Assembly (NCBI GenBank): GCA_963965975.1
Contig: OZ014415.1
Coordinates: 439,001 to 503,000 of the forward strand
Length of the DNA stretch: 64,000 nucleotides
Direction of reading: 5' to 3'
From: Xestospongia bergquistia
Taxonomy: Eukaryota; Porifera; Demospongiae; Haplosclerida; Petrosiidae
Shown: positions 4,715 through 32,107 of the stretch, piece by piece
How the letters are laid out: the number at the start of each line of letters is the position of its first letter
Position numbering within the stretch: the first letter of the stretch is position 1
Notes under the pieces: model-generated
Told to the model about the DNA's origin: nothing
Database searches by the model: none
Seen by the model: the letters and a program-made list of their open reading frames with translations, nothing else
Translations under genes and position numbers: made by a program

Positions 4715-5224
4715 TTTTTAATTGTTTTTTATTATTGCATTAACTCTGAGCCACATGTATATATGCAAGAGCATATGTGTTTAGTTGCAGTAGTTGTGTC
4801 CACATGCAGATAATATTCAATATTTAGCAATGTAAGAAATACAAAGAAGCATAAAAGAGAAGACAAATTTAACATAATAATTTTATAAGAGAGTAGCTAT
4901 AGAAGGATGTGTACAGTTGTGTCCATGCAGAGCAATGTGAAAGTGAATGAGATCAATGACTAAGTTAGATTGCTAAGTATACAGAAATTATATTATATTA
5001 ATTTAATGCTAAACTTTAGCTTTATTCCGGAGAGATCAATATCATGCAGTCAAAGATCACATCCACAATTATTATAATAAATCTTGCCTTGTTTGCTGTG
5101 CATCTACGTATTCATAGTTATATGTTGATTAAGAGACTCTTCATTCCAACGTTACTACGTTTTCTTGATGTTATAAATTAACGATATCTCCCGTCAACAA
5201 CGCACATAGTACGCTTGTAGCAGA
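4715..5224 (+). promoter_or_regulatory. Upstream region of gene 1
   Basis: No gene is seen. A TATA-like ttataaat lies about 50 bases before the start codon at 5225. The CRE-type element found before genes 3, 4 and 5 is absent here, so gene 1 appears to have a different promoter. Confidence 0.35.
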
Positions 5225-6203
5225 ATGTTGCGAGTGACGGCATTATTTTGTATGCTGTTATTCTGCAGTGTTATCGATGGTAAGTGCATATCTACTGCAA
5301 CAATACTAAATTCCTTTAATATTATCAGTGTATACGTATTTGTAATGCAAATTTCTTCTCTTTCTTTAGTAATTCAATGTCAATCTGCAGTTGGTACTAT
5401 TTCACCAAATCCAGCAGAATTTGGTAGTACTGTTACACTCAATTGTATTGGCACACCTGCTTCAGGAGACACAGGTTCTATAGCCTGGTTGAAACGACTA
5501 CCACTAGGTCTATCAATACTAGTAACTACAAATCAAGTTGTATCATCTGAATTTTCATTAATACATGTGCTTTATAATGTTACTGCAAGAGATAGTGGTG
5601 ATTATATTTGTCGTTTTGATAGCCATTTAGCTGGAAATCATACTGATGATGTTGTGACTCTTGAAATTATCCCAGCTGTTGATATTATCGAGAATCCCAC
5701 AACACGTGGTAGCAATGTGACACTATACTGCATTGGTGGTCCTGCTCCGGAGGGCTCTGGGTCACTTTTCTGGCTAAGTCCAACACCAAATGTTATTGCA
5801 AGTTCAGGTATTGTTACAGATGATACCACGTTGGTACATGTACTAGTCAATGTTGACGCCAGTGTTGGTGGAGAATATACTTGTCGTTTTGATAGTATTA
5901 CAAGACCTAATGCAGACAACACAATGACTCTTCAAATTTTCCCTTATTTTACTGATGCTACTACTGGTACAAAAGTCCTACAAACTAATGGCAGTACATT
6001 CAATGTCACATGTGAAGCAGAAGGATTTCCAGCACCAACTATGGAGTTGCTTGACTTAAGATCAATGCCTCAGATAGTTGCAACAACTGCTTCCAATTCA
6101 CTCACTCACATGTTTGTCTCCTTCCAATTTGGACAAGAGGGTAGCTATCAATGTGTTGCAACAAGTGCTATTCAAACCATTTATCACAACTTTACAATCA
6201 TAT
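5225..6203 (+). other. Gene 1 signal peptide exon and Ig1-3 exon
   Basis: Exons are 5225-5279 and 5370-6203. The first ends in phase 1 and the join reads into [15 protein letters not shown]. The second carries three Ig domains without introns between them, including the disulfide-closing pieces [17 protein letters not shown] and GSYQCVA. These three are unlike the later repeats and unlike the N-terminal domains of genes 4 and 5, so they are specific to gene 1 within this window. The start is chosen because ATG 5225 opens a hydrophobic signal sequence just before a good donor. Confidence 0.85.
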
Positions 6204-9200
6204 GTAAGTCTGCCTTTAATTCATCATCATATATTTTTATATTTTCTTTAATATAGTGTCTCCTGGAGGTACAGTTACTCCTGACTTCATCATTGCTGCA
6301 CCAGATAGTTCTGGAGACTTTAGTTGTAGTGCTCTTGGAGGGCCAGGAAATCAATTTGTGTGGGTCCATAATGGTACTACAGCACTTTGTAGTGATTGTC
6401 AACAAGAACTAACTTTGCAGGACATACAAGGTATGGATGTGTGTGTTATAATGTGGAATAGGTTGCTATACATATTGTTTCTCATTAAAAGGTCTTATTA
6501 ATGGGACATCAAGTGTTGTAGTATCAGAAGGCACCTCCTTGAATATTGCTTCAGTTAACATTAGTGTTGTTGGTGCTTATGGTTGTCTAGTTGCTAATGA
6601 TGCTGGTTTTGATGTGGAATTTGTTAGCCTTTACATGACACCATTGATCATAGAACAACCTCAGAGTGGTATTGTAAAAAGTGATGAAAGTTTCAATTTG
6701 ACATGTGTGGCACAGTCCTTTCCAAGTCCTACTTATCAATGGGAGAAGTTCAATGAAACAACATCACAATTTGAGGAAGTTTCTCCTAATGGAGATAATT
6801 CAATTTTAGAACTCAATCCAGTTGGATCAGAAGGTTATGGTTTGTATCGCTGTGTTGCCTCAACACTTGCTGAAGGAATAAGAAACAGCACTATATCTAA
6901 TGAAGCCAGAGTTGCAGGTACAGTTACAGTATCACGTGTAAATGTTTATATATGAATTTTTGACAGCTCCACCCAGTATTAATCCACCAAATGATACAGC
7001 TAAAAGTGGAGATATAGTGATGTTCAATTGTTCTACAAATGGAGGACCTAGTACATTCAGATGGTTCAAAGGAGACACAGAAATTACTACTGGCAGTCCC
7101 TACACTATTATAAATGAAACTGAAGAGTTGTCAACTTTAAAAATTAATATTGTTACTGGAGAAGAGTATGGCAACTATACTTGTGTTGTTACTAACATTG
7201 CAGGAACAGCTCAAGCTACAGCAGAACTTGCTGGTAAGTTCTGTAATATCTTGACAATATGAGTCTAAATCTTCAAATTATTATCATTATTGGGTCATTT
7301 CTGTCTTTACCTCTTTTTAGTTTCACCTGAAGACTTTATTACTATTTCAATGGCACCAAATGTGACACTCAATAGAGGAGATGATATTACTCTGACATGT
7401 AATACTACAGCCGGACCTAATAATATATTCACTTGGGTAAGACAAGGAAACAGAGCATGCTGTCCAGGAGGCCAACCTGCCACTGTTGAAGGTAAATATC
7501 ATCTCTGTTTCATGTAAAAATAACTATTTTTTTAATTTTAGAGCTTTTAAATGATACATCATTAATTATTAGTGAAGACCAAACACTTGTTCTTACCGAT
7601 GTGAATGCATCACATGGAAGTTCTTATACTTGTCTGGTCATCAATGATGCTGGTTTTGGAGTGGCCACTACTGTAGTGTATATCAGACCCTATTTTACAC
7701 AAGAACTCAATGAGTCTATTTTTGTCAATCACCTTGATCCTGTCAATCTCACATGTGAAGTGGAGTCTTTTCCTGCTTCAACAATTCAATGGGAGAAAAT
7801 AAATTCCACAGGATACTTTGAAGAATTATCTGGAGAAACTAATAACAATTTAATTATTTCATCTGTAGGTCGTGACGAACTAGGAACATATCGATGTGTT
7901 GCAACAACGAGCTTACTTAACATCATTCTCATTAGTACAACAACCATTTATGGTACATATAATGAATGCATTATTGAATATTATTAAATCTTTTTTCTTA
8001 AAGTTTATCCTCTGGTAACTCTAGTACCACAAAATGCCACTACTATGAGTGGAGAAACAGTACAACTCAACTGTTCTTCAGAGGGTGGACCAAATAATCA
8101 ATTTAAATGGTTTAAAGATGGTTCAGAAATTGCATTTAATGGAAAATTTAGTATTAATGATGGGGGCAATCATCTCTCTAGTTTATATGTTAATAACATT
8201 GAAGGAGGAGATCAAGGAGAATATGAGTGTCTTGTTAACAATACTGCTGGAAGTTCTAGAGCAATGACGTTGTTGACAGGTTTGTGTGTGTGTGTGTGTG
8301 TGTGTTTACAAAGGAAACAATTATTTAGTAAGGCTCAGTCTGTTTTAGCTATAGTAAAATAACTTTGTTGAAATTTTGGTTTCTTCTATACTATTTTACA
8401 GCAAAGTTCATATGATGTGTGATTGTATTTACATTTAATTTAGTTATTATTTGTTGAAATAACTAACAACTGCTACATCTGTTATTATTTCTTGTTACTT
8501 TAGTTTCACCAAAAAATTTAGTAACAGTCACACCAACACCAAATATAACACTAGATAGAGGAGATGATATTACTCTCATTTGTAACACTACTGCCGGACC
8601 TAATAACATGTTTTATTGGCTCAAACGAGGGCAATATCAAGCATGTTGTCCAGGAGGACAACTTGCTAACGTCGATGGTAAATATTAGATTTTAATATTA
8701 AGACCTATTAATATCTTTTTACTACAGAGCTCCTAAATGATACATCACTGATTGTTAGTCAAGATCAAACACTTGTTCTTACCAATGTGAATGCATCACA
8801 TGGGAGTTCTTATACTTGCTCAGTCATCAATGATGCTGGTTTTGGAGTGGCTAGCACTATAGTGTATATCAGGCCCTATTTTATAATAGAGCCAGAAGAA
8901 AATGTCTTTGTACAAGTTTCTACATCTGTCAATCTCACTTGTGTGGCAGAGTCCTTTCCAGAACCTTCTAAATATGAATGGTTTAAATTGATGTCTGGTA
9001 GTTTTGTAAAACTAGAAGGAGAAAACACGACTACTTTGATGTTTCCCTCTATTGATTTTAGTGATTTTGGGACATATAGATGTGAAGTTACAACAGATAT
9101 CTTAGGTGTGACAATAACATCACGAGAATCTGTTCTACATGGTCAGTTTAGATCAGATATTGTTTTATTATTCACATTCAATATATATCTTATTCTGTTG

Positions 9201-12200
9201 CAGTGTCACCATTTCCATCAGTTGATATTCAGCCACAGAATGCCACTACTGAAAAGGGAGAAAGCCCTATGTTTAATTGTTCAGCTAGTGGAGGACCTAA
9301 CAATCAATTTCGATGGTTTAAAAATGAGACAGAGATATTTTCCAGTGACAGTAAATATGACATCAGAGATGAAGGCAACCATTTATCTATTTTAACTATC
9401 AACAATATTGTTGGAGGAGAGCAAGGGGTTTACAAATGTGTTGTTAACAACAGTGCAGGAGATCATATGGCAACAACAAGACTAGATGGTTAGTATTAGG
9501 TTACTAAAATATAAACTAATTTCTCTTTGTTTTCTTAGTCTCACCCAAAGATCTAGTAACAGTCACTCCAGCAAATAATATAACACTTGATAGAGGAGAC
9601 GATCATACTTTGACTTGTCAAACACCAGCTGGTTCCAATAACCAGTTTATCTGGCTCCATCGAAGTCAAGAAGAAGCATGCTGTCAAGGTGGTCAACCCA
9701 CTAATCTTACTGGTAAATTGCCAACTTTCTTGTTTGCATGTATGTTGACTACTAATATCTGTCTTTAGTGCTTTTGAGTGATCCATCATTAATTGTTGGC
9801 AGAGAAGAAGCATTTGAACTTAGAAACGTCAATGCTTCACATGGAGGTTTCTATATTTGTGTGGTCATCAATGATGCTAGTTTTGGATTGGCCAGTACTA
9901 CAGTGTACATCAGACCTTACTTTATTGAGCAACCTGCTGAAAATATATTCGCTAAAAATCTGGATCCAGTTACCCTCACGTGTGGAGCAGAATCTTTCCC
10001 TGAGCCTACTTTCCAATGGGAGAAAATAAATTCATCAGGATATTTCCAAGAAATATCTGGAGAAACTAACAGTACTTTAGTGTTCTCATCTGTTGGTTAT
10101 GATGATTTTGGTAATTATCAATGTGTTGTTAGAACTTCTGTACTTGATATAACTCTTATTTCAAACACATCTACATTACATGGTTAGTAATACTAGATAT
10201 ATCAAAACTTAAGTAATACTGCACATATGTTCATTCTTTCATTAGTTTCTCCTGAGGATTCTGTTAGAGTTGAGCCATCCTTGCAAATAATTGACCATGG
10301 AAGTGAAATCAATTTTACTTGCACTGCTCAAGGAGGACCTGACAATATTTACTTGTGGTTTTTAAATGCATCAAATCAAGTTTGTACTGACTGTTCTACC
10401 TCTCCACAAGATGTAAACCAATTCTTAATGGGTAAGAAATCTAATAGCTCACACTTTAAGATTAATCATTGTCCTTACATAGGCCTTTCAAATAGTTCAG
10501 CTCTCAACACAAGTTTTGTGACTGAAAGGCAGTTACTAACAATCAGTGATGTTAATGCTACACTTCATGGTGGAACTTACTTCTGTGTTGTTCTTAATGA
10601 TGCTGGTTATGATGTTGGCACTGGAGTTCTCTTTGTAACAGTAACATTTACTCAACAACCAACAGATATAAAAACAACTGTCAATATGAATGTTGAATTT
10701 ACATGTGAAGCTCAATCTTTTCCACATCCCTCTTATAGTTGGGAAAGATTAATGGATGGTGGATTTGTTAGTGATGAGCGTGGGAATATGACAACATTAC
10801 CATTTATGCCAGTGAGTTACAGTGATGCTGGTGTGTATCGATGTGTGGCTACTTCTAGTAATGGAAGTGAAGTAATCAGTACACTGGGATCAGATAATGC
10901 TACTTTATATGGTGAGTTGAATATATATAATATTAATTTAATGTTGATAAACTTCTGTTCTTTAGTATCACCCGAGGGATCTGTCCAGTTAATTAATGAA
11001 ACACTGACTAAACAAGGAGGTACATTTAGTCTTGAATGTAGAGCTGAAGGAGGTCCTAACAATCAACATGTATGGTATCACAGAGGAGTAGCTGTTGTTG
11101 CTACTAGTGAACTAACAATCACTAGTTCTAGTAATGACACTCATAGTGTATCTATTTTGAGTGTAAGTAATGTGGATGCTGCTACACACAAAGGTGATTA
11201 TACTTGTAATGTGACTAATATGGCAGGATCAGAGTCAAAGACATCTACTGTTGTTGGTAAGTCAGTTGTATAGACTTGATTAATTACTTCTTTTTAATTT
11301 CTACAGTTTCTCCTGAGGGAATAGTATCTACATTACCTATAAATGCAACCCAAAGTAGAGGTGACAATGTTAACTTTACTTGTACAACTGATGCAGGTCC
11401 TAACAACATATATGTGTGGTTAAGAAATATTAGTGGGATAGGATGTTCAGACTGTGATGGAGGATCATTCAATGAAAGTACTGATAGAAATCGTGAGTAT
11501 AATTAATACAATTCATCGTATTAATATATTTACTTTCACTTCATAGTTGTTTTAGGAGCAGCTATAGCACAGACACAAGTTCTTGCTCTTACTGACATTA
11601 CAGCTCCTACTAATGGTGGTACATATTACTGTGTAGTACTGAATGATGCTGGATATGGCATTGATTCCTCAATACTATTCGTTGTTCCTTACTTTATCAC
11701 ACACCCTCAAAATGTGGAATTAGAACAAATGCAAACATTGAGATTGACATGTGAAGCTGAAGCTTTCCCATCTCCATCAATTCAATGGGAAAAGATGAAC
11801 AGAGTAACAGGAATGTTTGAAGCAATATCTGGTGAAATCAGTACTGTCTTTATGATCAATTCAGTTAACTTTAGTGATTTTGGTATGTATCGGTGTGTAG
11901 CAACTAATGTGATTGGTGGTATAGAATATAATACCAATAGCTCAGCAGCAGTAGTGACGATTTCTCCCGAAGGCTCAGTAATAGTTCAACCAAAAAATAT
12001 GACATTTGACTATGAAGATGAAGTTAATCTTACATGTACTTGTCAAGGAGGACCTAACAATATGTTTAGTTGGTTATTTAATGGGTCCACTATCACATCT
12101 GGTACCAACAGCTATACAATCAGTTCTACAGAGTTTTCCTCCATATTGACAATAAGTCATATCTCAGCACCAGATCATGGTGGTCTATATCAGTGTATAA

Positions 12201-15200
12201 AAGAAAACATTGCTGGTAATGGTAGTGATACTACATATGTTTTCATTAGTCCAAGATTTATAATTCAACCTGTACAAACTTTAGCTGTCAATGGTATGAT
12301 TAATAACTTGACATGTGAAGCAGAATCATTTCCAGTTCCACAATACATGTGGCGTAAACATGAGCCAGATGGAAGTATTTCAGATGTAGGACCAGATGAT
12401 TATCTTCTTCCATTTAATCCAGTTGTCTTTGGTGATGCTGGTATTTATCAGTGTATAGCAACTAGCGACTCAATTACAATATATTCCAATAATGCAACTT
12501 TATATGGTGAGTTGAATATAGGTAATAAATTAAATAATATCTATTCTTTAGTATCACCTGAGGGTACTGTCGAATTAATCAATCAAACACTGACTAAACA
12601 AGGAGGTACATTTAGTCTTGAATGTAGAGCTAAAGGAGGTCCTAACAATCAACATGTATGGTATCACAGAGGAGAACTCCTTGCAGACACTAGTGTACTG
12701 ACTATCACCAGTTCCAGTAATGAGACTGATAGTGTATCTATTTTGAGTGTAAGTAGTGTGGATGCTGCTACACACAAAGGTGACTACACTTGTAATGTGA
12801 CTAATATGGCAGGATCAGAGTCAAAAACATCTACTGTTGTTGGTAAGTTAGTTTTACAGACTTAGTAAAGCTAAAGTACTTCTTTTTAATTTCTACAGTT
12901 TCTCCTGAGGGAATAGTATCTACATTACCAATAAATGCAACTCACAATAGAGGTGACAATGTCACCTTTAATTGTATAACTGATGCAGGTCCAGGCAATG
13001 TATATGTGTGGTTAAAAAATGGCAGTGAGATAGTATGCTCAGACTGTAGTGGAAGATCATTCAATGGAACCATTAATACAGATCGTACGTACACTTACAT
13101 ATATTTCTATGTACATACATAATCTATTACTTTTCCTCTGTAGTTGTCATGAGATTAGCTATAGCTATATCAGAAAATCTAACTCTTACTGACATCACAG
13201 CTCCAACTGATGGTGGCACATATGACTGTATAGTACTTAATAATGCTGGATTTGGGATTGATTTCTCAATACTGTATGTTGTTCCTTACTTTATCACACA
13301 CCCTCAAAATGTGGAATTAGAACAAATGCAAACATTGAGATTGACATGTGAAGCTGAAGCTTTCCCATCTCCATCAATTCAATGGGAAAAGATGAACAGA
13401 GTAACAGGAATGTTTGAAGCAATATCTGGTGAAAACAATACTGTCTTTATGATCAATTCAGTTAACTTTAGTGATTTTGGTATGTATCGGTGTGTAGCAA
13501 CTAATGTGATAAATGGTGTGGAATATAATACCAATAGCTCAGCAGCTCTAGTGACCATTTCTCCCAGAGGTTCAGTAATAGTTCAACCACAAAATATGAC
13601 ATTTGACTATGAAGATGAAGTGAATCTTACATGTACTTGTCAAGGAGGTCCTAACAACATGTTTAGTTGGTTATTAAATGGGTCCATTATCACATCTGGT
13701 ACCAACAGCTATACTATCAGCTCTACAGAGTTCTCCTCCATATTGACAATAAGTCGTATCACAGCACCAGATCATGGTGGTCTATATCAGTGTACTACAC
13801 AAAACAATGCTGGTAATGGTAGTGATACTACATATGTTTTCATCAGTCCAAGATTTTTAATTCAACCTATACAAACTTTATCTGTTAATGGCATGAATAG
13901 TAACTTGACATGTGAAGCAGAATCATTTCCAGTTCCACAATACATGTGGCGTAAACATGAACAAGATGGAAGGACTTTAGATGTAGGACCAGATGATTAT
14001 CTTCTTCCATTTAATCCAATTGTGTTTGGTGATGCTGGTATTTATCAGTGTATAGCAACTAGCAACTCAATTACAATATACTCTAATAATGCAACTTTAT
14101 ATGGTGAGTTGAATATATGTAAAATTAATAAAATATTATAAATATTCTATTTTTAAGTATCACCCGAGGGATCTGTCCAGTTAATTAATGAAACACTTAC
14201 TAAACAAAGAGGTACATTTAGTCTTGAATGTAGAGCTGAAGGAGGTCCTAACAATCAACATTTATGGTATCACAGAGGAATGCTCCTTGTAGACACTAGT
14301 GTACTGACTATCACTAGTTCTAGTAATGACACTCATAGTGTATCTATTTTGAGTGTAAATAATGTGGATGCTGGTACGCACAGAGGTGACTACACTTGTA
14401 ATGTGACTAATATGGCAGGATCAGAGTCAAAAACATCTACTGTTGTTGGTAAGTCAGTTGTACAGACATGATTAAGTTAAACTTCTTTCTAATTTCTATA
14501 GTTTCTCCTGAGGGAATAGTGTCAGTATCACCTATGAATGCAACCCACAGTAGAGATGACAATATCAACATTACTTGTACAACTGATGCAGGTCCTAACA
14601 ATATGTTTACTTGGTCAATTAATGGGTCCAATATCACATCTGGTACCAATAGCTACACAATTAGTTCAACAGAGTACTACTCCATATTGACAATAAGTGG
14701 TATCATAGCACCAGATCATGGTGGTCTATATCAGTGTATTGCACAAAACAATGCTGGTAGTGGTAGTGATACTACATATGTTTTCATCAGTCCAAGATTT
14801 TTAATTCAACCTATACAAACTTTAGCTGTTAATGGTATGATTAATAACTTGACATGTGAAGCAGAATCATTTCCAGTTCCACAATACATGTGGCATAAAC
14901 ATGAACAAGATGGAGGGACTTTAGATGTAGGACCAGATGATTATCTTCTTCCATTTAATCCAATTGTGTTTGGTGATGCTGGTATTTATCAGTGTATAGC
15001 AACTAGCAACTCAATTACAATATACTCTAATAATGCAACTTTATATGGTGAGTTAAAGAGATATGTATAACATTAATTTAATATTATAAATATTGTGTTT
15101 TTAGTATCACCTGAGGGATCTGTCCAATTAATTTCCCAGACACTAACTGAACAAGGAAGTACATTTAGTCTTGAATGTAGAGCTGAAGGAGGTCCTAACA

Positions 15201-18200
15201 ATCAACATGTATGGTATCACAGAGGAGTACTTCTTGTAGACACTAGTGTACTGACTATCACTAGTTCTAGTAATGACACTCATAGTGTATCTATTTTGAG
15301 TGTAAATGATGTGGATGCTGGTACGCACAGAGGTGACTACACTTGTAATGTGACTAATATGGCAGGATCAGAGTCAAAAACATCTACTGTTGTTGGTAAG
15401 TCAGTTATATACAGAGTTGATTAAGTTAAACCTACTTCTTTCTAATTTCTACAGTTTCTCCTAAGGGAATAGTGACAGTATCACCTATGAATGCAACCCA
15501 CAGTAGAGATGACAATGTCAACATTACTTGTACAACTGATGCAGGTCCTAATAATATGTTTACTTGGTCATTTAATGGGTCCAATATCACATCTGGTACC
15601 AATAGCTACACAATTAGTTCAACAGAGTACTACTCCATATTGACAATAAGTGGTATCACAGCACCAGATCATGGTGGTCTATATCAGTGTATTACACAAA
15701 ACAATGCTGGTAGTGGTAGTGATACTACATATGTTTTCATCAGTCCAAGATTTATAATTCAACCTATACAAACTTTATCTGTTAATGGCATGAATAATAA
15801 CTTGACATGTGAAGCAGAATCATTTCCAGTTCCACAATACATGTGGCGTAAACATGAACAAGATGGAAGGACTTTAGATGTAGGACCAGATGATTATCTT
15901 CTTCCATTTAATCCAATTGTGTTTGGTGATGCTGGTATTTATCAATGTATAGCAACTAGCAACTCAATTACAATATACTCTAATAATGCAACTTTATATG
16001 GTGAGTTGAATATATGTAAAATTAATAAAATATTATAAATATTCTATTTTTTAGTATCACCCGAGGGATCTGTCCAGTTAATTAATGAAACACTGACTAA
16101 GCAAGGAGGTACATTTAGTCTTGAATGTAGAGCTGAAGGAGGTCCTAACAATCAACATGTATGGTATCACAGAGGAGTAGCTGTTGTTGCTACTAGTGAA
16201 CTGACTATCACCAGCTCTAGTAATGACACTCATAGTGTATCAGTTTTGACTAGAAGTAATGTTAATGCTGTTACACACAAAGGTGACTACACTTGTAATG
16301 TGACTAATATGGCAGGATCAGAGTCAAAGACATCTACTGTTGTTGGTAAGTCAGTTGTAAATACTTGATTAATATAAACTTACTTATTCCTAATTTTCTC
16401 ACAGTTTCTCCTGAGGGAATAGTATCTACATTACCTATGAATGCAACCCACAGTAGAGGTGACAATGTTAACTTTACTTGTACAACTGATGCAGGTCCTA
16501 ACAACATATATTTGTGGTTAAGAAATATTAGTGAGATTGGATGCTCAGAATGTGATGGAGGATCATTCAATGAAAGCATTGATAGAAATCGTGAGTATAA
16601 TTAATACAATACATCATATTAATATATTTATTTTCATTTCGTAGTTGTATTAGGAGCAGCTATAGCACAGACACAAGTTGTTTCTCTTACTGACATCACA
16701 GCTCCTACTAATGGTGGCACATATTATTGTGTAGTACTGAATGATGCTGGATATGGCATTGATTCCTCAATACTATTTGTTGTTCCTTACTTTATCACAC
16801 ACCCTCAAAATGTGGAATTAGAACAAATGCAAACATTGAGATTGACATGTGAAGCTGAAGCTTTCCCATCTCCATCAATTCAATGGGAAAAGATGAACAG
16901 AGTAACAGGAATGTTTGAAGCAATATCTGGTGAAATCAGTACTGTCTTTATGATAAATACAGTTGCCTTTAGTGATTTTGGTATGTATCGGTGTGTAGCA
17001 AGTAATGTGATAAATGGTGTGGAATATAATGCTACTAGCTTAGCAGCTCTAGTGACCATTTCTCCCAGAGGTTCAGTAATAGTTCAACCACAAAATATGA
17101 CATTTAAATATGAAGATGAAGTTAATCTTACATGTACTTGTCAAGGAGGACCTAACAATATGTTTAGTTGGTTATTAAATGGGTCCACTATCACATCTGG
17201 TACCAACAGCTATACTATCAGCTCTACAGAGTTTTCCTCCATATTGACAATAAGTCGTATCACAGCACCAGATCATGGTGGTCTATATCAGTGTATTGCA
17301 CAAAACATTGCTGGTAATGGTAGTGATACTACATATGTTTTCATCAGTCCAAGATTTTTGACTCATCCTGTGGAGACAACTTTATCTGTTCGTGGTATGA
17401 TTAATAACTTGACATGTGAAGCAGAATCATTCCCAGTTCCACAATACATGTGGCATAAACATGAACAAGATGGAAGGACTTTAGATGTAGGACCAGATGA
17501 TCATTTTCTTCCATTTAATCCAATTGTGTTTGGTGATGCTGGTATTTATCAGTGTATAGCAACTAGCAACTCAATTACAATATACTCTAATAATGCAACT
17601 TTATATGGTGAGTTAAAGAGATATGTATAACATTAATTTAATATTATAAAAATATTGTGTTTTTAGTATCACCTGAGGGATCTGTCCAATTAATTTCCCA
17701 GACACTAACTGAACAAGGAGGTACATTTAGTCTTGAATGTAGAGCGGAAGGAGGTCCTAACAATCAACATGTATGGTATCACAGAGGAGTACTTCTTGTA
17801 GACACTAGTGTACTGACTATCACTAGTTCTAGTAATGACACTCATAGTGTATCTATTTTGAATGTAAGTAATGTTAATGCTGCTATACACAAAGGTGACT
17901 ACACTTGTAATGTGACCAATATGGCAGGATCAGAGTCAAAAACATCTACTGTTGTTGGTAAGTCAGTTGTACAGAGTTGATTAAGTTAAACTTACTTTTT
18001 TTTAATTTCTATAGTTTCTCCTGAGAGAATAGTGTCAATATCACCTATGAATGCAACCCACAGTAGAGATGACAATGTCAACATTACTTGTACAACTAAT
18101 GCAGGTCCTAACAATATGTTTACTTGGTCAATTAATGGGTCCAATATCACATCTGGTACCAATAGTTACACGATTAGTTCAACAGAGTACTACTCCATAT

Positions 18201-21200: not shown

Positions 21201-24200
21201 AATGATGCTGGATATGGCGTTGATTCCTCAATACTATTTGTTGTTCCTTACTTTATCACACATCCTCAAAATGTGGAATTAGAACAAATGCAAACATTGA
21301 GATTGACATGTGAAGCTGAAGCTTTCCCATCTCCATCAATTCAATGGGAAAAGATGAACAGAGTAACAGGAATGTTTGAAGCAATATCTGGTGAAATCAG
21401 TACTATCTTTATGATCAATTCAGTCAACTTTAGCGATTTTGGTATGTATCAGTGTGTAGCAAGTAATGTGATAAATGGTGTGGAATATAATGCTACTAGC
21501 TCAGCAGCTCTAGTGACCATTTCTCCCAGAGGTTCAGTAATAGTTCAACCAAAAAATATGACATTTGACTATGAAGATGAAGTTAATCTTACATGTACTT
21601 GTCAAGGAGGAAATAACAATATGTTTAGTTGGTTATTAAATGGGTCCACTATCACATCTGGTACCAACAGCTATACTATCAGCTCTACAGAGTTCTCCTC
21701 CATATTGACAATAAGTCGTATCACAGCACCAGATCATGGTGGTCTATATCAGTGTATTGCACAAAACATTGCTGGTAATGGTAGTGATACTACATATGTT
21801 TTCATCAGTCCAAGATTTTTGACTCATCCTGTGGAGACAACTTTATCTGTTCGTGGTATGATTAAAAACTTGACATGTGAAGCAGAATCATTCCCAGTTC
21901 CACAATACATGTGGCATAAACATGAACAAGATGGAAGGACTTTAGATGTAGGACCAGATGATCATTTTCTTCCATTTAATCCAATTGTGTTTGGTGATGC
22001 TGGTATTTATCAGTGTATAGCAACTAGCAACTCAATTACAATATACTCTAATAATGCAACTTTATATGGTGAGTTAAAGAGATATGTAACATTAATTTAA
22101 TATTATAAATATTGTGTTTTTAGTATCACCTGAGGGATCTGTCCAATTAATTTCCCAGACACAAACTGAACAAGGAAGTACATTTAGTCTTAAATGTAGA
22201 GCGGAAGGAGGTCCTAACAATCAACATGTATGGTATCACAGAGGAGTACTTCTTGTAGACACTAGTGTACTGACTATCACTAGTTCTAGTAATAGCACTC
22301 ATAGTGTATCTACTTTAAGTGTAAATAATGTGGATGCTGGTACACACAAAGGTGTTTACACTTGTAATGTGACTAATATGGCAGGATCAGAGTCAAAAAC
22401 ATCTACTGTTGTTGGTAAGTCAGTTATATACAGAGTTGATTAAGTTAAACCCACTTTTTTCTAATTTCTACAGTTTCTCCTGAGGGAATAGTGTCAGTGT
22501 CACCTATGAATGCAACCCACAGTAGAGATGACAATGTCAACATTACTTGTACAACTGATGCAGGTCCTAATAATATGTTTACTTGGTCATTTAATGGGTC
22601 CAATATCACATCTGGTACCAATAGCTACACAATTAGTTCAACAGAGTACTACTCCATATTGACAATAAGTGGTATCACAGCACCAGATCATGGTGGTCTA
22701 TATCAGTGTATTGCACAAAACAATGCTGGTAGTGGTAGTGATACTACATATGTTTTCATTAGTCCACGATTTTTAATTCAACCTGTACAAACTTTATCTG
22801 TTAATGGTATGAATAATAACTTGACATGTGAAGCAGAATCATTTCCAGTTCCACAATACATGTGGCGTAGACATGAACAAGATGGAAGGACTTTAGATGT
22901 AGGACCAGATGATTATCTTCTTCCATTTAATCCAATTGTGTTTGGTGATGCTGGTATTTATCAATGTATAGCAACTAGCAACTCAATTACAATATACTCT
23001 AATAATGCAACTTTATATGGTGAGTTAAAGAGATATGTATAACATTAATAAAATATTATAAATATTGTGTTTTTAGTATCACCTGAGGGATCTGTCCAAT
23101 TAATTTCCCAGACACTAACTGAACAAGGAAGTACATTAAGTCTTGAATGTAGAGCTGAAGGAGGTCCTAACAATCAACATGTATGGTATCACAGAGGAGT
23201 ACTTCTTGTAGACACTAGTGTACTGACTATCACTAGTTCTAGTAATGACACTCATAGTGTATCTATTTTGAGTGTAAATAATGTGGATGCTGGTATGCAC
23301 AGAGGTGACTACACTTGTAATGTGACTAATATGGCAGGATCAGAGTCAAAAACATCTACTGTTGTTGGTAAGTCAGTTATATACAGAGTTGATTAAGTTA
23401 AACCTACTTCTTTCTAATTTCTACAGTTTCTCCTAAGGGAATAGTGACAGTATCACCTATGAATGCAACCCACAGTAGAGATGACAATGTCAACATTACT
23501 TGTACAACTGATGCAGGTCCTAATAATATGTTTACTTGGTCATTTAATGGGTCCAATATCACATCTGGTACCAATAGCTACACAATTAGTTCAACAGAGT
23601 ACTACTCCATATTGACAATAAGTGGTATCACAGCACCAGATCATGGTGGTCTATATCAGTGTATTGCACAAAACAATGCTGGTAGTGGTAGTGATACTAC
23701 ATATGTTTTCATCAGTCCAAGATTTATAATTCAACCTATACAAACTTTATCTGTTAATGGCATGAATAATAACTTGACATGTGAAGCAGAATCATTTCCA
23801 GTTCCACAATACATGTGGCGTAAACATGAACAAGATGGAAGGACTTTAGATGTAGGACCAGATGATTATCTTCTTCCATTTAATCCAATTGTGTTTGGTG
23901 ATGCTGGTATTTATCAGTGTATAGCAACTAGCAACTCAATTACAATATACTCTAATAATGCAACTTTATATGGTAAGTTGAATATATGTAAAATTAATAA
24001 AATATTATAAATATTCTATTTTTAAGTATCACCCGAGGGATCTGTCCAGTTAATTAATGAAACACTGACTAAACAAGGAGGTACATTTAGTCTTGAATGT
24101 AGAGCTGAAGGAGGTCCTAACAATCAACATGTATGGTATCACAGAGGAGTAGCTGTTGTTACTACTAGTGAACTGACAATCACCAGTTCTAGTAATGACA

Positions 24201-27200
24201 CTCACAGTATATCAGTTTTGACTAGAAGTAATGTTAATGCTGCTACACACAAAGGTGACTACACTTGTAATGTGACTAATATGGCAGGATCAGAGTCAAA
24301 GACATCTACTGTTGTTGGTAAGTCAGTTGTAAATACTTGATTAATATAAACTTACTTATTCCTAATTTTCTCACAGTTTCTCCTGAGGGAATAGTATCTA
24401 CATTACCTATGAATGCAACCCACAGTAGAGGTGACAATGTTAACTTTACTTGTACAACTGATGCAGGTCCTAACAACATATATGTGTGGTTAAGAAATAT
24501 TAGTGAGATTGGATGCTCAGAATGTGATGGAGGATCATTCAATGAAAGCATTGATAGAAATCGTGAGTATAATTAATACAATACATCATATTAATATATT
24601 TATTTTCACTTCATAGTTGTTTTAGGAGCAGCTATAGCACAGACACAAGATCTTGCTCTTACTGACATCACAGCTCCTACTAATGGTGGCACATATTATT
24701 GTGTAGTACTGAATGATGCTGGATATGGCATTGATTCCTCAATACTATTTGTTGTTCCTTACTTTATCACACATCCTCAAAATGTGGAATTAGAACAAAT
24801 GCAAACATTGAGATTGACATGTGAAGCTGAAGCTTTCCCATCTCCATCAATTCAATGGGAAAAGATGAACAGAGTAACAGGAATGTTTGAAGCAATATCT
24901 GGTGAAATCAGTACTGTGTTTATGATAAATACAGTTGCCTTTAGTGATTTTGGTATGTATCGGTGTGTAGCAACTAATGTGATAAATGGTGTGGAATATA
25001 ATGCTACTACCTCAGCAGCTCTAGTGACCATTTCTCCCAGAGGTTCAGTAATAGTTCAACCAAAAAATATGACATTTGACTATGAAGATGAAGTTAATCT
25101 TACATGTACTTGTCAAGGAGGACCTAACAATATGTTTAGTTGGTTATTTAATGGGTCCTCTATCACATCTGGTACCAACAGCTATACAATCAGTTCTACA
25201 GAGTTTTCCTCCATATTGACAATAAGTCGTATCACAGCACCAGATCACGGTGGTCTATATCAGTGTATAAAAGAAAACATTGCTGGTAATGGTAGTGATA
25301 CTACATATGTTTTCATCAGTCCAAGATTTTTGACTCATCCTGTGGAGACAACTTTATCTGTTCGTGGTATGATTAATAACTTGACATGTGAAGCAGAATC
25401 ATTCCCAGTTCCACAATACATGTGGCGTAAACATGAACAAGATGGAAGGACTTTAGATGTAGGACCAGATGATTATCTTCTTCCATTTAATCCAATTGTC
25501 TTTGGTAATGCTGGTATTTATCAATGTATAGCAACTAGCAACTCAATTACAATATACTCTAATAATGCAACTTTATATGGTGAGTTAAAGAGATATGTAA
25601 TATTAATATAATATTATAAAAATTCTGTTTTTTAGTATCACCTGAAGGATCTGTCCAGTTAATTAATCAAACACTTACTAAACAAGGAAGTACATTTAGT
25701 CTTAAATGTAGAGCTGAAGGAGGTCCTAACAATCAACATGTATGGTATCACAGAGGAATGCTCCTTGTTGACACTAGTGTACTAACTATCACTAGTTTTA
25801 GTAATGACACTGATAGTCTATCTATTTTGAGTATAAGTAATGTGGATGCTGGTACACACAAAGGTGACTACACTTGTAATGTGACTAATATGGCAGGATC
25901 AGAGTCAAAGACATCTACTGTTGTTGGTAAGTCAGTTGTAAATACTTGATTAATATAAACTTACTTATTCCTAATTTTCTCACAGTTTCTCCTGAGGGTA
26001 TAGTATCTACATTACCTATAAATGCAACCCACAGTAGAGGTGACAATGTTAACTTTACTTGTACAACTGATGCAGGTCCTAACAACATATATGTGTGGTT
26101 AAGAAATATTAGTGGGATAGGATGTTCAGAATGTGATGGAGGATCATTCAATGAAAGTATTGATAGAAATCGTGAGTATAATTAATACAATACATCATAT
26201 TAATATATTTATTTTCATTTCGTAGTTGTATTAGGAGCAGCTATAGCACAGACACAAGTTGTTTCTCTTACTGACATCACAGCTCCTACTAATGGTGGCA
26301 CATATTATTGTGTAGTACTGAATGATGCTGGATATGGCATTGATTCCTCAATACTATTTGTTGTTCCTTACTTTATCACACACCCTCAAAATGTGGAATT
26401 AGAACAAATGCAAACATTGAGATTGACATGTGAAGCTGAAGCTTTCCCATCTCCATCAATTCAATGGGAAAAGATGAACAGAGTAACAGGAATGTTTGAA
26501 GCAATATCTGGTGAAATCAGTACTGTGTTTATGATAAATACAGTTGCCTTTAGTGATTTTGGTATGTATCAGTGTGTAGCAAGTAATGTGATAAATGGTG
26601 TGGAATATAATGCTACTAGCTTAGCAGCTCTAGTGACCATTTCTCCCAGAGGTTCAGTAATAGTTCAACCAAAAAATATGACATTTAACTATGAAGATGA
26701 AGTTAATCTTACATGTACTTGTCAAGGAGGACCTAACAATATGTTTAGTTGGTTATTTAATGGGTCCTCTATCACATCTGGTACCAATAGCTATACAATC
26801 AGTTCTACAGAGTTTTCCTCCATATTGACAATAAGTCGTATCACAGCACCAGATCACGGTGGTCTATATCAGTGTATCAAAGAAAACATTGCTGGTAATG
26901 GTAGTGATACTACATATGTTTTCATCAGTCCAAGATTTTTGACTCATCCTGTGGAGACAACTTTATCTGTTCGTGGTATGATTAATAACTTGACATGTGA
27001 AGCAGAATCATTCCCAGTTCCACAATACATGTGGCGTAAACGTGAACAAGATGGAAGAACTTTAGATGTAGGACCAGATGATTATCTTCTTCCATTTAAT
27101 CCAATTGTCTTTGGTGATGCTGGTATTTATCAGTGTATAGCAACTAGCAACTCAATTACAATATACTCCAATAATGCAACTTTATATGGTGAGTATTGTT

Positions 27201-30200
27201 ACTATTAATTGTAATTTTTTCATTCTATACAAACAGTTTCTCCTGAGGGTAGTGTTACAGCTACACCTGATGTCATTAATTCTCTAACTGATACTGAAGT
27301 GACATACAATTGTACAGCTAAAGGTGGTCTCTTTAATAATTTTATATGGACATATGAGAGAACTGGAAATGTTGTGGCTAATGGGCAACTATTAACATTT
27401 GATAGTCATGCTAGTAAAGGTGGAGACTATCAATGTTTGGTAACTAATCTAGCTGGTATGGAAGCTGTTAATGTTACTTTAAATGGTATTATACTAGATT
27501 AACATAATATTAATATTTACTCACTATATAGTTGGTCCAGAAATTCTCATACACCCCAGTCCAATGAATGTCAGTATTATGGTTGAGAATATCACACTGC
27601 ACTGTCTAGCATCTGGTTTTCCTATACCAAATATAACTTGGTTATTAAATAACTCCATGATTGAAGCTGATAATGATCGTATCACTGTCATGACAACTGA
27701 TAGTCCAGATCTTATTCCATTCGGAACTGTCTCCAGTGTACTTACCATAGAAAGAACTGTTATTGCAGATTCTGGAAATTATCAATGCGTTGCTAATAAT
27801 CTTGATTTTTTTTCTAAAAAAGAAAGTCAACATGCACTAGTGTTAGTACAAGGTGAGAGAACATAATGTACTGAGTTATATCTTTTACATCTTTATTCTG
27901 TCTTTTAGCTGTTCCTGATGAACCTCTCAATCTGACAGCACGCAATGTAACCTCTCGTAATTTGATTTTAGAATGGATTAGACCTCATCATAACAATGCT
28001 CCTATACTTGGATATTACATCTTCTACACACGACCAGATTTCTTAGGAGGTGATATTGTAACACTGTTAGTTACAGGAGCAATAGAACAGCAGTTTATTG
28101 ATGAACTACATCCTGGAGAAATGTATAGTTTTACAGCAATAGCATTCAATGAGGAGGGCAATAGTAGTAATGTTAGTTTACCACTAACTGTTAGAACATT
28201 GGAAGAAGGTACTGATATATTTATTTCTCAATAATTGATATAATTGTTTGTTGATTCTTTAGCTCCTGGTGGTCCTCCAGTTAATGTCACTGGATTTGCT
28301 AATTCTTCTGTTAGTATTCAACTTATGTGGGAGTTACCAAATAAAGCAGACAGACATGGTGTCATTATTGGATATGATGTTAGATATGTTGGAAACAACA
28401 TTGAACTATTTTTGGAGAATGTAACTGATTTATCAGTTTTGCTGATAAATCTTGAGGAGTTTGAAAACTATAACATATCAGTTCATGCTAAGACAGCAGT
28501 TGGTCCAGGACCATGGAGTGAAGCTATTGTTATAATGACAGACCCACACAGTAAGTTTGCAGTGACATTATAAATTATATTAGATTATGTATTCCAATAG
28601 TTCCTGGTCCTGTACCACAACCATTTCCTGTCACTATTGTCACATCTACAAGTGCTATTTTACAATGGAATTCAACTTCTGATCCAAATGGCAATGATTT
28701 AAACTACACAGTGATAGTAACTCCAATTGATACAGTAAATTCATCTTTAAGTTCAAGAAGAAGGAGACAGACAAATAATATTGGTGCTGAGGTGATACGA
28801 TGTCTGGCTTTCTTGAAACTAAATGCAACAGTAATAGTCAGTACAGATGGTACTGTGACTATTACAAATGTAACTGGCCTAGGTAAGTTAAGATATAAAT
28901 GATAACAATGATTGTGTGTCAATTTTATTCAGTTCCTTTTACTGTGTATGAGTTTGTGGTAATTGCTACAAATGAATTTGGAAGTAGTCCACCATCTCCT
29001 TCAAGGAGATTTTCCACTCTTGCTGACAGTAAGAGAATGAAAATGGTATTTAAAATGATAACATCTTCTTTTCAGATCCTAGTTCTGTTGAAGATTTAAT
29101 TCTAAATGGGACCACATCCAATAGTATTGTTATATCATGGATATCTCCTTCTTGTCCAAACTCATTACTAAGTGGCTATAGAATCTATTACAAAATGGGA
29201 TCTACTCCTCAAACTGGCAGTATTAATGATACTGATTATAGTACTATTGATTCAACAGATGCATCTAGTGTACTGTCACTATTTACTATTGAAGGATTGA
29301 CAGCAGGAACCATATACCTTATACATGTACGAGCCTTCACTGAACGACTCAATAATAATGAATTGTTAGGAGATGCAGATACTGAGATTGCTGTAAGATT
29401 AAATCCTGGTCCAGTTGAAGATTTAGATGGAATTACACAGTCATTGACTAGTATTATCATATCATGGGATCCTCCTCCAAGCTCATTCATAGATGGCTAT
29501 ATTATCTACTATAGAGAAGGAACTAATCGTCAAACTGTTCCTATTAATAGCACTACAGATTACATGTCTACAAGGTTAACAGATTCAGATTTGCAATCAT
29601 ATACTATTGAAGGACTGAGAGAAGGAACTACATATCTCATACATGTACGAGCATTCTCTGAACAGTTCAACACCATGCTTATAGGAGATGCTGACACAGA
29701 GATTGCTGTTGCAACTAATACTATGATACAAATCCCTCCAGATCAACAACCTACATCTGGTATATCCAGTATATTTTTTCGTTTGCCTTCAATTGGTGCA
29801 ATTATGAATGCAATAGAAATAGATAATATCACGTAAGTTTAAAGTGAATATTTATTGCTAAACTAACTTTGTTTCATCTCTACAGATATTATGGTATTAT
29901 AGTTGTACCTGATCCAGACACTAATTTTAATATTAGTGTAACTAACTTTGATACACAATATCCAAATATACAACCTCATGTCAGTAGAGGTAATAATCGC
30001 TACTACATCACAGCTGCTTGGAATGATCCTGATTTGGTACCTGATACTTTTACAGTAGGAGACCAAAGTAATACTGTAGCTGTTAGAAATGGAACTGCCG
30101 AGACCTATCACAATGCAAAGTTACGAAGGAAAACACCATATTGTATTTATATTGTAGTACATGGTCAATGGAATATGAGTAATGTAAGTTATATATATAT

Positions 30201-32107
30201 TAAAATGGAGACAGAAGTTTACAGATTCCTCTGTTTTCTTTTAGGAAACCATTATTCGATATTCAGAACAAGTATGTATTGACACAAGTAAGGATATCAG
30301 TATATGTGTCATTATTTAACTCTCTTTTTTTACATTTGTAGAACTAGGTTACAACTTGATTGCTCTCATTGTTCTGTTATCCTTTGCATTCATTGTAATT
30401 TGTTGCTGTTGTATCGCATGTATTATATTTATAATATGCTGCTACCGAAGAAGGTTAGCATGGATTGGATATATACATATATATTAACTTGTGTATTTGA
30501 TATATAAGTGATTGACATATGGACTATATGACAAAAAGTAATTTATATAGGAAAGAGAAGGAAGAAGATTATTCTCCTACTGTATTTGTCCCTCCTCAAG
30601 AAACTAAACCTGAAATAATCATTTTAAATGAATATGCTGAGAAAGGTATGAAATACAATAAAATATTAGGACAATCATATACAATATGCTAGAACTTTAA
30701 TTAAATGTTTAAGTGGTCATTATCAGTTTTTAATGCCAACTTTATAGGTACTGACAGAGATCCTGTACCTGTAATAGACTTTGTTGCTTATGTTGAACGT
30801 ATGCATTCTAATCAAGACTATCCTTTCAGTGAAGAATTTAGAGTAAGTTCTCAAGAATACATCAGGTAATTAATAAATTTCTCTTTATGTAGCATATTGA
30901 ACCACATCACTCACCAACTCGTGATGCTTCCATGGCCAATAGAGAGAGGAATCGTTATGTCAACATTCCAGCATGTAAGTTATTAAAATAATTATTATAA
31001 ATTTTACTTTGTTTTCTAGATGACCATTCTCGTGTTGTCCTCAAACGTAGTCCCAGTGGTTCTGATTACATTAATGCTAACCATATTGAAGTAAACATTA
31101 TAATCTGTTCATTTTAGTTTATTAATCTTTCTTAATTTTTAGGGTTATAAAAATAATGGATCATTTATTGCTACACAAGGTCCTATGAATAACACTGTTA
31201 ATGACTTCTGGCATATGATTTGGGAAAATGAGGTTCCAGTAATTGTTATGCTCACTAATTTAATAGAAAATGAACGAGTATGTTTTGTACATAGCTATAT
31301 ATATATATGTGCACAAAGTCTGAAGTGATAGCATATATCTTTTTCAATTAAGGTTAAATGTCACCAATATTGGCCTCAATCTGCTTTTGAAGGATCAAAT
31401 GTTGCTGAGTATGGTCCTCTGCGAGTGAAACTAGTTGAAGAATCTAAAAAGAATCATCAAGTGTTGAGAACATTTACTTTAAGTAAAGCAGGTTCATCTG
31501 AAGAAAGAATTATTAAGCAGTACCATTTCACTTCCTGGCCTGATTATGGAGCTCCGTCATCACCTGGACCATTGTTAGAGTTTGTGGATGAAGTTAGAAG
31601 TGACTATAATCCATTTGAAGGACCAATGGTAGTCCATTGCAGGTTAGTACATTATTAGTTAAAGTATAAAGAATAAAAGTCACTGAACATTTTTAATTTA
31701 TACAGTGCTGGTGTGGGTCGTACTGGAACATTTATGGCTATTCTTGTCCAATTGGCTCGTATACAATCAGAAAGAACTGTTGATATTTATAATTATGTCC
31801 GTTATATGCGTACCCAACGTCCTATGATGGTAATGAATGAGGTATGTGTCTCTTATGTTATAATATTATAATAATATGTTCTACTAAAATGTAGGAGGAG
31901 TATATCTTTATTCATGATGCACTTGTTGAAGCTTTGACAGAAGGAATGATTGAAGGGGTTGCTGTAGGAAAAGGTACTTTTGATCATGAAGAAGACACTG
32001 CTGCTGGTAAGGTGGAAGATGGAGTTACTATTGAAAATGATAGTGCTCTGAGGAAACAAAGAGAAATTGAAGCTCTGGTTAATGAATATGGTGATGATGA
32101 CGACTGA
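5225..32107 (+). CDS. Gene 1: giant Ig-repeat receptor tyrosine phosphatase, 65 exons
   Basis: Joining the 65 predicted exons gives 23,046 nt, an exact multiple of three with no internal stop: 7,681 residues. The order is signal peptide ([14 protein letters not shown]), about 69 Ig domains, 5 FN3 domains, the RPTP membrane-proximal domain, one transmembrane helix near residue 7280, a short juxtamembrane segment and one PTP domain. PTP key residues are the WPD-loop Asp at about residue 7533, the [10 protein letters not shown] nucleophile Cys at about 7565 and Arg at about 7571. It should sit in the plasma membrane and remove phosphate from tyrosines in the cytoplasm; its ligand is unknown. Introns are tiny, so exons fill about 86 percent of the locus. 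Unusual points: the very high Ig number, only one PTP domain where LAR-type receptors have two, and an altered Q-loop. One transcript need not contain every exon. The exon model is hand-built from splice borders. Confidence 0.85.
8283..8305. repeat. (TG)n microsatellite beside a splice donor
   Basis: A TG run begins within the donor of the exon ending at 8279 (gtttgtgtg...). Length changes could affect donor strength. Confidence 0.85.
10432..10482 (+). other. 51-nt open intron (exitron candidate) in gene 1
   Basis: GTAAG at the start and ATAG at the end bound 51 nt, which is 17 codons with no stop in frame. Splicing yields FLMG-LSNSS; retention inserts 17 residues beginning KKSNSSHFK and adds an N-glycosylation site. 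The position equals the mid-Ig intron of sister exons, whose introns do contain stops. Confidence 0.7.
10966..27188 (+). repeat. Gene 1 tandem Ig-exon array (A, B and C cassettes)
   Basis: Type B is one 291-nt exon with one Ig ([10 protein letters not shown]...): 10966, 12552, 14158, 15105, 16055, 17667, 18618, 19572, 20516, 22124, 23077, 24027, 25636. Type A is a 186-nt exon plus a 960/963-nt exon with four Ig: 11307/11547, 12899/13144, 16405/16645, 20866/21106, 24377/24617, 25986/26226. Type C is one 546-nt exon with two Ig: 14502, 15455, 18015, 18968, 19916, 22474, 23427. The numbers are exon starts. The order is B-A-B-A-B-C-B-C-B-A-B-C-B-C-B-C-B-A-B-C-B-C-B-A-B-A. Every border is phase 1 and introns are often near-identical. 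Cassette spacing is about 950 bp for C+B and 1.6 kb for A+B. Confidence 0.9.
15455..23972 (+). repeat. Two tandem copies of a 4.46-kb higher-order repeat
   Basis: Cassettes C-B-A-B-C-B-C starting at 15455 recur from 19916 in the same order. Offsets between matching exon starts are 4461, 4461, 4461, 4461, 4457, 4459, 4459 and 4459. Copy-specific intron variants also match: both first C exons are followed by the same gttgaatatatg-type intron. A whole seven-cassette block was duplicated after the cassettes had diverged. Confidence 0.8.
27237..27852 (+). other. Gene 1 last two Ig domains
   Basis: Exons are 27237-27485 (Ig68, [12 protein letters not shown]...) and 27532-27852 (Ig69, [11 protein letters not shown]...). 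Relative to gene 3, the second exon lacks 93 nt (31 residues) around 27715-27725, in frame, so the two genes differ in a Gly/Ser-rich loop of this domain. Confidence 0.85.
27909..29832 (+). other. Gene 1 FN3 domains with a basic cleavage site
   Basis: Exons are 27909-28208 (FN3-1), 28263-28550 (FN3-2), 28601-28882 plus 28933-29028 (FN3-3) and 29076-29832 (FN3-4 and FN3-5). FN3 marks are [25 protein letters not shown] and [22 protein letters not shown]3-3 contains [10 protein letters not shown], a candidate furin-type site like the one at which LAR-family receptors are cut into two associated chains. The 29076 exon holds two FN3 domains, whereas its counterparts in genes 3 and 4 hold one. Confidence 0.8.
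29886..30645 (+). other. Gene 1 membrane-proximal domain, transmembrane helix and juxtamembrane
   Basis: Exons are 29886-30183, 30245-30287, 30342-30453 and 30551-30645. The first encodes [17 protein letters not shown] ... [11 protein letters not shown] ... FTVGDQS ... [12 protein letters not shown], matching the RPTP membrane-proximal pattern (YxxAxxP, FxxGD, YxNxxL). The third encodes the helix [19 protein letters not shown], followed by a Cys-rich stretch that may be palmitoylated, then the basic stop-transfer CCYRRR. The fourth encodes an acidic segment ending [11 protein letters not shown]. Confidence 0.8.
30748..32107 (+). other. Gene 1 cytoplasmic PTP domain
   Basis: Exons are 30748-30842, 30893-30974, 31020-31090, 31143-31277, 31353-31642, 31706-31841 and 31895-32107. 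Motifs in order: [19 protein letters not shown] (pTyr recognition loop), [47 protein letters not shown] (general acid Asp), [14 protein letters not shown] (nucleophile Cys and Arg) and [19 protein letters not shown]. All main catalytic residues are present except the Q-loop glutamines. An acidic tail ends in Asp residues at the TGA 32105-32107. No second PTP domain follows. Confidence 0.9.

Follow-up and report, generated by a model that had tools for sequence, protein, structure and literature searches.

A sponge locus predicted to encode a giant receptor tyrosine phosphatase, and a closely similar ectodomain on adhesion G-protein-coupled receptors

How many immunoglobulin (Ig) domains can a single receptor carry, and does such a string of domains belong to only one kind of signaling tail? 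These questions are raised by a locus of the sponge Xestospongia bergquistia, which lies in a stretch of 64,000 nucleotides (hereafter the window, whose first base is position 1) corresponding to bases 439,001-503,000 of contig OZ014415.1 (C5 below) in assembly GCA_963965975.1, whose 21 contigs total 146.46 Mb. An earlier note on this DNA had described positions 5225-32107 as a single intact frame of 7,681 residues in 65 exons, with about 69 Ig domains fused to a tyrosine phosphatase. Our analysis of this gene, which we call RPTP1, supports the view that the DNA encodes one giant receptor frame of Ig, fibronectin type III (FN3) and protein tyrosine phosphatase (PTP) domains.

The gene model was built with an exon-chaining program that was trained on the window itself and constrained only by the start ATG at 5225 and the stop at 32107. 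Unaided, the program returned 61 exons encoding 7,557 amino acids without inner stops; in wider runs it merged neighboring genes and missed signal exons. Four exons (30342-30453, 30551-30645, 30893-30974 and 31020-31090) and a later donor in exon 64 were placed by eye, and these exons bear on the transmembrane (TM) helix and part of the PTP domain. Their counterparts in RPTP0, an adjacent gene described below, are identical at 108/112, 93/95, 80/82 and 71/71 bases, each preceded by AG, and in a third copy two of the four (the counterparts of 30893 and 31020) were already part of the automatic model. The final model, on the forward strand, reproduces the frame of the earlier note to the residue, with 65 exons, all GT-AG, that sum to 23,046 nt and 7,681 amino acids plus the stop. 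The 64 introns have a median length of 54 nt and comprise 56 of phase 1, five of phase 0 and three of phase 2, and between exon 1 and exon 54 every intron (53/53) is of phase 1. Controls were near nil, as the chain score of 2058 on the forward strand (longest chain 7,518 codons) compares with 3 on the reverse complement (85 codons) and with 0 in 8/8 dinucleotide shuffles, and the two alternative frames of the coding sequence contain 532 and 995 stops. The parts of RPTP1, in window positions, are as follows.

5225..5279, + strand: exon 1, signal peptide of 18 residues, ending in phase 1; the only signal-exon match in 5100-5300
5370..10911, + strand: exons 2-15, leader Ig domains (about 16, read from exon sizes); Pfam Ig_3/I-set on the first 585 amino acids
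10966..27188, + strand: exons 16-47, repeat array in units of 291, 546 and 186+960/963 nt; all introns of phase 1
27189..27195, + strand: end of homology to adhesion-receptor arrays, 6-7 nt beyond exon 47 and inside the splice-donor consensus
27237..27852, + strand: exons 48-49, the two final Ig domains, lying to the phosphatase side of the breakpoint
27909..29832, + strand: exons 50-54, FN3 region (Pfam, 1,287-residue piece; the placing of the five fn3 stretches is our reading)
28601..28882, + strand: exon 52, convertase-like site, from the motif SSRRRRQ
29886..30287, + strand: exons 55-56, juxtamembrane ectodomain; no clear assignment among the best Pfam stretches, with Interfer-bind just under the cut-off
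30342..30453, + strand: exon 57, TM helix, hydropathy 3.3 at residue 7287; placed by eye, with a counterpart in RPTP0
30551..32107, + strand: exons 58-65, cytoplasmic linker, single PTP domain, acidic tail and stop at 32105-32107
Within exons 58-65, + strand: PTP motifs SWPD at 31533, HC at 31635 and AGVGRTG at 31707

The encoded protein comprises a signal peptide, 69 Ig domains, five FN3 domains, one TM helix and one PTP domain. The Ig count, which bears out the figure of about 69, comes from a profile built on the Ig exons of RPTP1 itself and covers exons 2-49 with no gap of more than 40 amino acids. It is backed by Pfam searches of three protein segments (585, 480 and 1,287 of the 7,681 amino acids), which gave Ig_3/I-set, five fn3 stretches and a complete Y_phosphatase domain (1-234 of 234). 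Hydropathy and Pfam together reveal the signal peptide, single TM helix and extracellular Ig and FN3 domains of a receptor protein tyrosine phosphatase (RPTP), and the enzyme has an intact WPD loop (SWPD) and an intact ten-residue sequence at its HC(X)5R loop. Among PTPs of solved structure, PTPRS is the nearest in sequence (PDB, E 1.2e-145, residues 5-290 of a 340-residue query). Exon 55 is kept in all copies of the gene that were examined, with 90-95% identity in the three others within the window.

Ahead of the TM helix are 224 N-glycosylation sequons, and at about 4 nm per Ig domain the string would be about 300 nm long. The sole R-X-K/R-R sequence of the protein is the SSRRRRQ of exon 52, which also occurs in RPTP0 together with one cytoplasmic example. 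Convertases cut the ectodomains of LAR-type RPTPs, and by analogy it is plausible that cleavage at RRRRQ makes RPTP1 a two-piece receptor. At the same site, two partial copies downstream read SSRQ (g2) and SSRQKRQ (g3) in the list of open reading frames.

Is the number of repeats real, or is it a product of misassembly or of mixed haplotypes? Exons 16-47 hold 13 copies of the 291-nt unit at 85-100% identity, seven copies of the 546-nt unit at 97-100%, six copies of the 960/963-nt unit at 92-98% and six copies of the 186-nt unit at 84-99%. Exon 14 of the leader, also of 186 nt, shares just 58-62% identity with the last of these units. Some repeat exons match one another at a rounded 100%, which is what an artefact might leave behind. 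However, the longest exact repeat in the 16 kb of positions 10,901-27,300 is 369 bp, identities fall as low as 85%, 92% and 97% depending on the unit, and RPTP0 presents another array length with the same unit grammar. We consider an artefact extremely improbable, and a collapse of the array to a few exons in another assembly, which the earlier note had named among the outcomes that would overturn it, is unlikely given this divergence. The introns that separate repeat exons are 89-94% identical on average. Among repeat copies the mean ratio of nonsynonymous to synonymous divergence (dN/dS) is 0.39 for the 291-nt, 0.47 for the 960/963-nt and 0.54 for the 546-nt units, and no stop occurs in 14,679 nt of repeat exons, where 10-54 would be expected from the observed dS in the absence of constraint. 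These values together mark the repeats as recent, distinct and constrained.

A further question is whether the array and the phosphatase belong together. Any combination of phase-1 exons preserves the frame, and the Ig array is found with other tails as well (see below), such that the Ig and FN3-PTP parts might be separate genes, or the array might be secreted, with a joint frame that is coincidental. Against this, the intron between exons 47 and 48 measures 48 nt, like the other introns of the array (a gene border was not searched for separately), and at the equivalent junction in RPTP0 a 963-nt exon is likewise followed by one of 249 nt. Two separate genes are thus very unlikely in our judgment. 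Alternatively, the array might be a library of exon cassettes from which Dscam-like alternative splicing produces shorter receptors, with the 69-Ig protein made rarely or never. Under this arrangement the unbroken run of phase-1 introns would allow every Ig exon or block to be skipped in frame, the recurrence of exon types as 291, 546 and 186+960 units would supply the cassettes, and headless phosphatase copies downstream could act as alternative tails. On the other hand, by our reading the 186-nt exon encodes part of one Ig domain, as does the beginning of the 960-nt exon, which fits a series rather than mutually exclusive variants. Moreover, all 64 introns are GT-AG, and the linear order of exon sizes is the same in RPTP0 and in two receptor genes, AG1 and AG3, that are described below. 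We regard a cassette library as unlikely, though it deserves more serious consideration than an accident of reading frames.

Evidence on constraint comes from RPTP0, which lies just upstream (C5:423,557-439,403) and has 42 exons encoding 4,489 amino acids with 36 Ig domains. As the automatic chain merged this gene with its neighbors, similarity to RPTP1 was used to locate its first exon, its small exons and its ends. Between the two genes the PTP exons differ by five nonsynonymous and 10 synonymous changes, with a ratio of the respective proportions (pN/pS) of 0.13. The corresponding values are 33.7 and 16.3 for exon 2 (pN/pS 0.65; Fisher p 0.033 versus PTP) and 53.5 and 16.5 for exons 52-55 (pN/pS 1.00; Fisher p 0.0017 versus PTP). 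Elsewhere pN/pS is 0.38 for exons 3-6, 0.32-0.64 for exons 48-50, 0.90 for exon 52, 1.14 for exon 54, 0.36 for exon 55 and 0.05 for exons 57-58 (six differences). Judging from these 15 differences, the phosphatase is under strong constraint; exon 2 and exons 52-55 evidently change faster than the enzyme, and other parts are mixed. A conserved enzyme beneath a string that changes quickly in places would suit a recognition receptor.

The same comparison bears on whether RPTP1 is a decayed or decaying duplicate without function. Adjacent copies are truncated and lack exon 1, as might be expected in a decaying cluster. However, the 27 exon pairs compared between RPTP1 and RPTP0 (out of 42 exons in RPTP0) differ in length only by multiples of three, and both the absence of stops from the repeats and the low pN/pS of the phosphatase argue against decay, which we find scarcely credible for RPTP1 itself.

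Is the string confined to the phosphatase? A DNA search with the RPTP1 leader gave two further good matches, at C5:1,107,708 and C5:1,141,190, both on the opposite strand. They lie in a cluster at C5:1,084,000-1,142,187 (- strand), about 0.65 Mb from RPTP1, whose genes end without a PTP domain in the 70 kb that were read. AG1 (C5:1,142,187-1,120,967, - strand) extends from signal peptide to stop in 51 GT-AG exons, encoding 5,940 amino acids with 52 Ig domains, and AG3 (C5:1,108,705-1,095,857, - strand) does so in 35 GT-AG exons, encoding 3,522 amino acids with 27 Ig domains; exon 1 of each was placed by likeness. Seven hydrophobic peaks follow the signal peptide of AG1 on its C-terminal side, and Pfam finds an Ig domain, GPS (1-45 of 45) and 7tm_2 (4-250 of 250) in its last 1,099 amino acids, which identifies it as an adhesion G-protein-coupled receptor (GPCR). 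An EGF-like stretch can also be made out by eye in this region. AG3 has seven hydrophobic peaks beyond residue 3000, preceded by two weak ones, together with the motif ICECNHLTNFA and a Pfam GPS match at C5:1,097,279-1,097,377, and is a probable adhesion GPCR by motif and hydropathy. Two more genes, AG2 (11 Ig domains) and AG4 (18 Ig domains, without a start), are represented by partial models, and the ICECNHL motif is present in 4/4 AG models.

The likeness of these genes to RPTP1 begins at the first exon, where the 18 residues of AG3 are near-identical to the 18 residues of RPTP1. Leader exon 2 has 85-86% amino acid identity between RPTP1 and the two adhesion GPCRs, and 85-89% at three other places on C5. 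In the introns that follow leader exons 2-5, phosphatase and GPCR genes have 85-98% identity over the aligned part, which for the intron after exon 5, where length has changed, amounts to 20-76%. Leader dS between the two kinds of gene is 0.01-0.21. Parts of the 3 kb of 5' flank of AG3 match both RPTP flanks at 80-88%, and the 3 kb of 5' flank of AG1 showed no match to them. Among 150 of 327 candidates scored, a 97-residue Ig exon recurs at 78-100% identity in at least 38 places, all in the RPTP and AG clusters, and other matches reach at most 49%. Homologous ectodomains are therefore found on different tails, which is one feature of paired receptors. A further adhesion-GPCR cluster is indicated by GPS matches at C5:2.61-2.76 Mb, with more distant Ig exons near C5:2,756,001-2,762,000, and its tail of GPS and seven-transmembrane (7TM) domains looks by eye like that of AG1.

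How did one ectodomain come to have two tails? RPTP1 gave 17 matches to the AG cluster, and among the 12 that reach furthest, 11 end at position 27195 and one at 27194. On the AG3 side, the six matches listed end 6-8 nt beyond the last shared exon. Because these trailing 6-8 nt are splice-donor consensus, the break in homology is placed at or just inside the intron, and the introns at the break are of phase 1 in both RPTP1 and AG3. Breaks at the ends of phase-1 exons point to exon shuffling of the tails. In a tree of 38 Ig exons, copies from phosphatase and GPCR genes are mixed, with six label changes, two of which are forced by starred branches, and 16/35 inner forks are open. This intermixing implies that the array subtypes predate the split of the tails or were exchanged afterwards.

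The remainder of the window holds several incomplete copies of the phosphatase gene.

32768..34815, + strand: headless copy of the exon 55-65 region, with SWPD and GRTG motifs and no Ig array; exons 55, 57, 60 (in part) and 61-65 are matched, and exons 56, 58 and 59 are not
40117..47967, + strand: partial copy g2, with Ig repeats, FN3 and PTP
50744..56849, + strand: partial copy g3, with Ig, FN3 and PTP
57307..58283, + strand: further PTP fragment matching exons 61-65, with SWPD and GRTG motifs
61152..64000, + strand: partial copy g4, start only, continuing beyond the end of the window

The exons of g2-g4 are open. A scan of four stretches for signal exons gave one weak candidate (48721, before g3) and none in 38400-40117 (before g2) or 58400-61152 (before g4). 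The headless phosphatase copies could be debris, or they could provide alternative 3' ends for the upstream array. Copy g2 is flanked by an inverted repeat of 95 nt (36226-36320 and 50173-50267, 84% complementary, 13.9 kb apart). An open frame at 37922-38251 (+ strand) resembles the dimerisation region at the C terminus of a hAT transposase. Beyond the window, at C5:511,182-522,767 (+ strand), an automatic gene model of 2,392 amino acids has a hydrophobic start and distant Ig-like exons.

Taken together, these observations lead us to favor, with a probability of roughly 0.62, the reading that RPTP1 is a giant single-pass receptor tyrosine phosphatase that serves as a recognition or adhesion tether and whose ectodomain is shared with interchangeable effectors. 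In such a receptor, the glycosylated string of 69 Ig domains would bind at a distance, either to itself on another cell, to a matrix partner, or to a particle or microbes. The FN3 domains and the probable convertase site RRRRQ would join the string to a membrane stump, and the single PTP domain, which resembles D1 of LAR, would remove tyrosine phosphates near the engaged string. Engagement might concentrate or exclude the enzyme, and local tyrosine phosphorylation would fall or rise in turn. In the GPCR form, a pull on the string would act on the GPS and stalk. With first exons, leader and Ig repeats joined at phase-1 borders to a 7TM tail, one module would have at least two outputs.

Several points weigh against this reading. 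Neither g2, g3, g4 nor the two smaller PTP pieces have a match to exon 1, and by this measure the cluster contains debris. With phase-1 introns throughout exons 1-54, splicing could leave out any Ig or FN3 exon without breaking the frame, and a receptor with all 69 Ig domains may be rare. Counts of nonsynonymous and synonymous differences are small (15 for the PTP exons), some pairs for leader exons 3 and 5 exceed a dN/dS of 1 on the basis of very few changes, and relaxed constraint on the ectodomain would resemble rapid change driven by recognition. Finally, gene conversion between clusters could explain part of the similarity between RPTP and AG genes, and would make the tail exchange appear younger.

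A bolder proposal, which we offer as a tentative possibility, is a modular system in which a rapidly recopied Ig string has been joined by phase-1 exon shuffling to a phosphatase, an adhesion GPCR and a tyrosine-rich tail. Its products might be paired receptors for self and non-self or for microbes, with variable array length and exon choice, and size exclusion of a phosphatase perhaps 300 nm long might act as the switch. The candidate for the third tail is a distant array at C10:4,696,001-4,723,374 (- strand), with units of about 1.6 kb and Ig exons that are about 28-42% identical; it is possible that this array represents a third type of effector. At its end, an automatic partial model of 8 kb, labeled by eye, has FN3-like stretches, a hydrophobic segment and a cytoplasmic part with numerous tyrosine motifs (YENL, YECI, YVNxK). 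For kinase tails, no PF07714 match falls at C5 410-523 kb or 1.08-1.15 Mb among the matches listed (129 of 1,201 candidates scored). Matches to PTP, GPS and kinase domains abound in the genome. Y_phosphatase matches number at least 194 (150 of 405 candidates scored), counted by exon and not by gene, and the ones listed are grouped in tandem on C5, C9, C10, C2 and C3, among others. The clusters of PTP exons on the other contigs lie at C9:1.99-2.15 Mb, C10:0.97-1.25 Mb, C2:6.83-6.93 Mb and C3:1.27 Mb.

How does this gene compare with known receptors? LAR-type (R2A) RPTPs such as PTPRS share with RPTP1 the order of Ig and then FN3 domains, one TM helix and a classical PTP domain, and among solved structures PTPRS matches that domain best by sequence. 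However, R2A receptors have three Ig domains in all and tandem D1-D2 phosphatase domains, whereas RPTP1 has 69 Ig domains and a single PTP domain (one Y_phosphatase stretch before the stop), which sets it outside this class. If translated as read, RPTP1 would carry about twenty times as many Ig domains as its LAR-type counterparts. The expectation that known RPTPs carry few Ig domains agrees with passages of PMC10815196, which describe the R2A ectodomain through Ig1, Ig2 and Ig3 and R3 RPTPs with FN3 domains only, 9-17 in human. R3 receptors, with FN3 domains and a single PTP domain, have been reported also from Amphimedon queenslandica (PMC5336234). They share FN3 domains and a single cytoplasmic PTP domain with RPTP1, which falls outside R3 by virtue of the 69 Ig domains that precede its FN3 region. 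In the titles and opening lines of abstracts in the open literature, neither an RPTP with dozens of Ig domains nor an ectodomain common to an RPTP and an adhesion GPCR was found among the matches listed.

Long Ig arrays are known from titin and hemicentin, which are sarcomeric or matrix proteins. RPTP1 has dozens of serial Ig domains in common with them, but is predicted to be a membrane phosphatase. Dscam-type arrays are marked by clusters of mutually exclusive exons, and the repeat blocks and phase-1 introns of RPTP1 would allow exon skipping. Vertebrate immune paired receptors have similar ectodomains with opposed tails that carry immunoreceptor tyrosine-based inhibitory or activating motifs (ITIM or ITAM). 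The sponge genes likewise place a similar ectodomain on different tails, but here the tails are PTP and 7TM rather than ITIM and ITAM. Ig domains are among those of sponge adhesion GPCRs (Figure 4 legend, PMC4302439), and the available part of that report does not mention receptors with 52 or 27 Ig domains that are closely matched by an RPTP. AG1 and AG3 have the appearance of such Ig-bearing adhesion GPCRs, with exon 1, leader and repeats in common with RPTP1, which instead ends in a phosphatase. The RPTP and AG genes are candidates for cell recognition in this animal, and they constitute a natural experiment in receptor modularity, in which a phosphatase and a G-protein receptor encoded on the same contig carry one kind of giant ectodomain. 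Both why the string is so long and whether string or tail defines the signal become directly testable.

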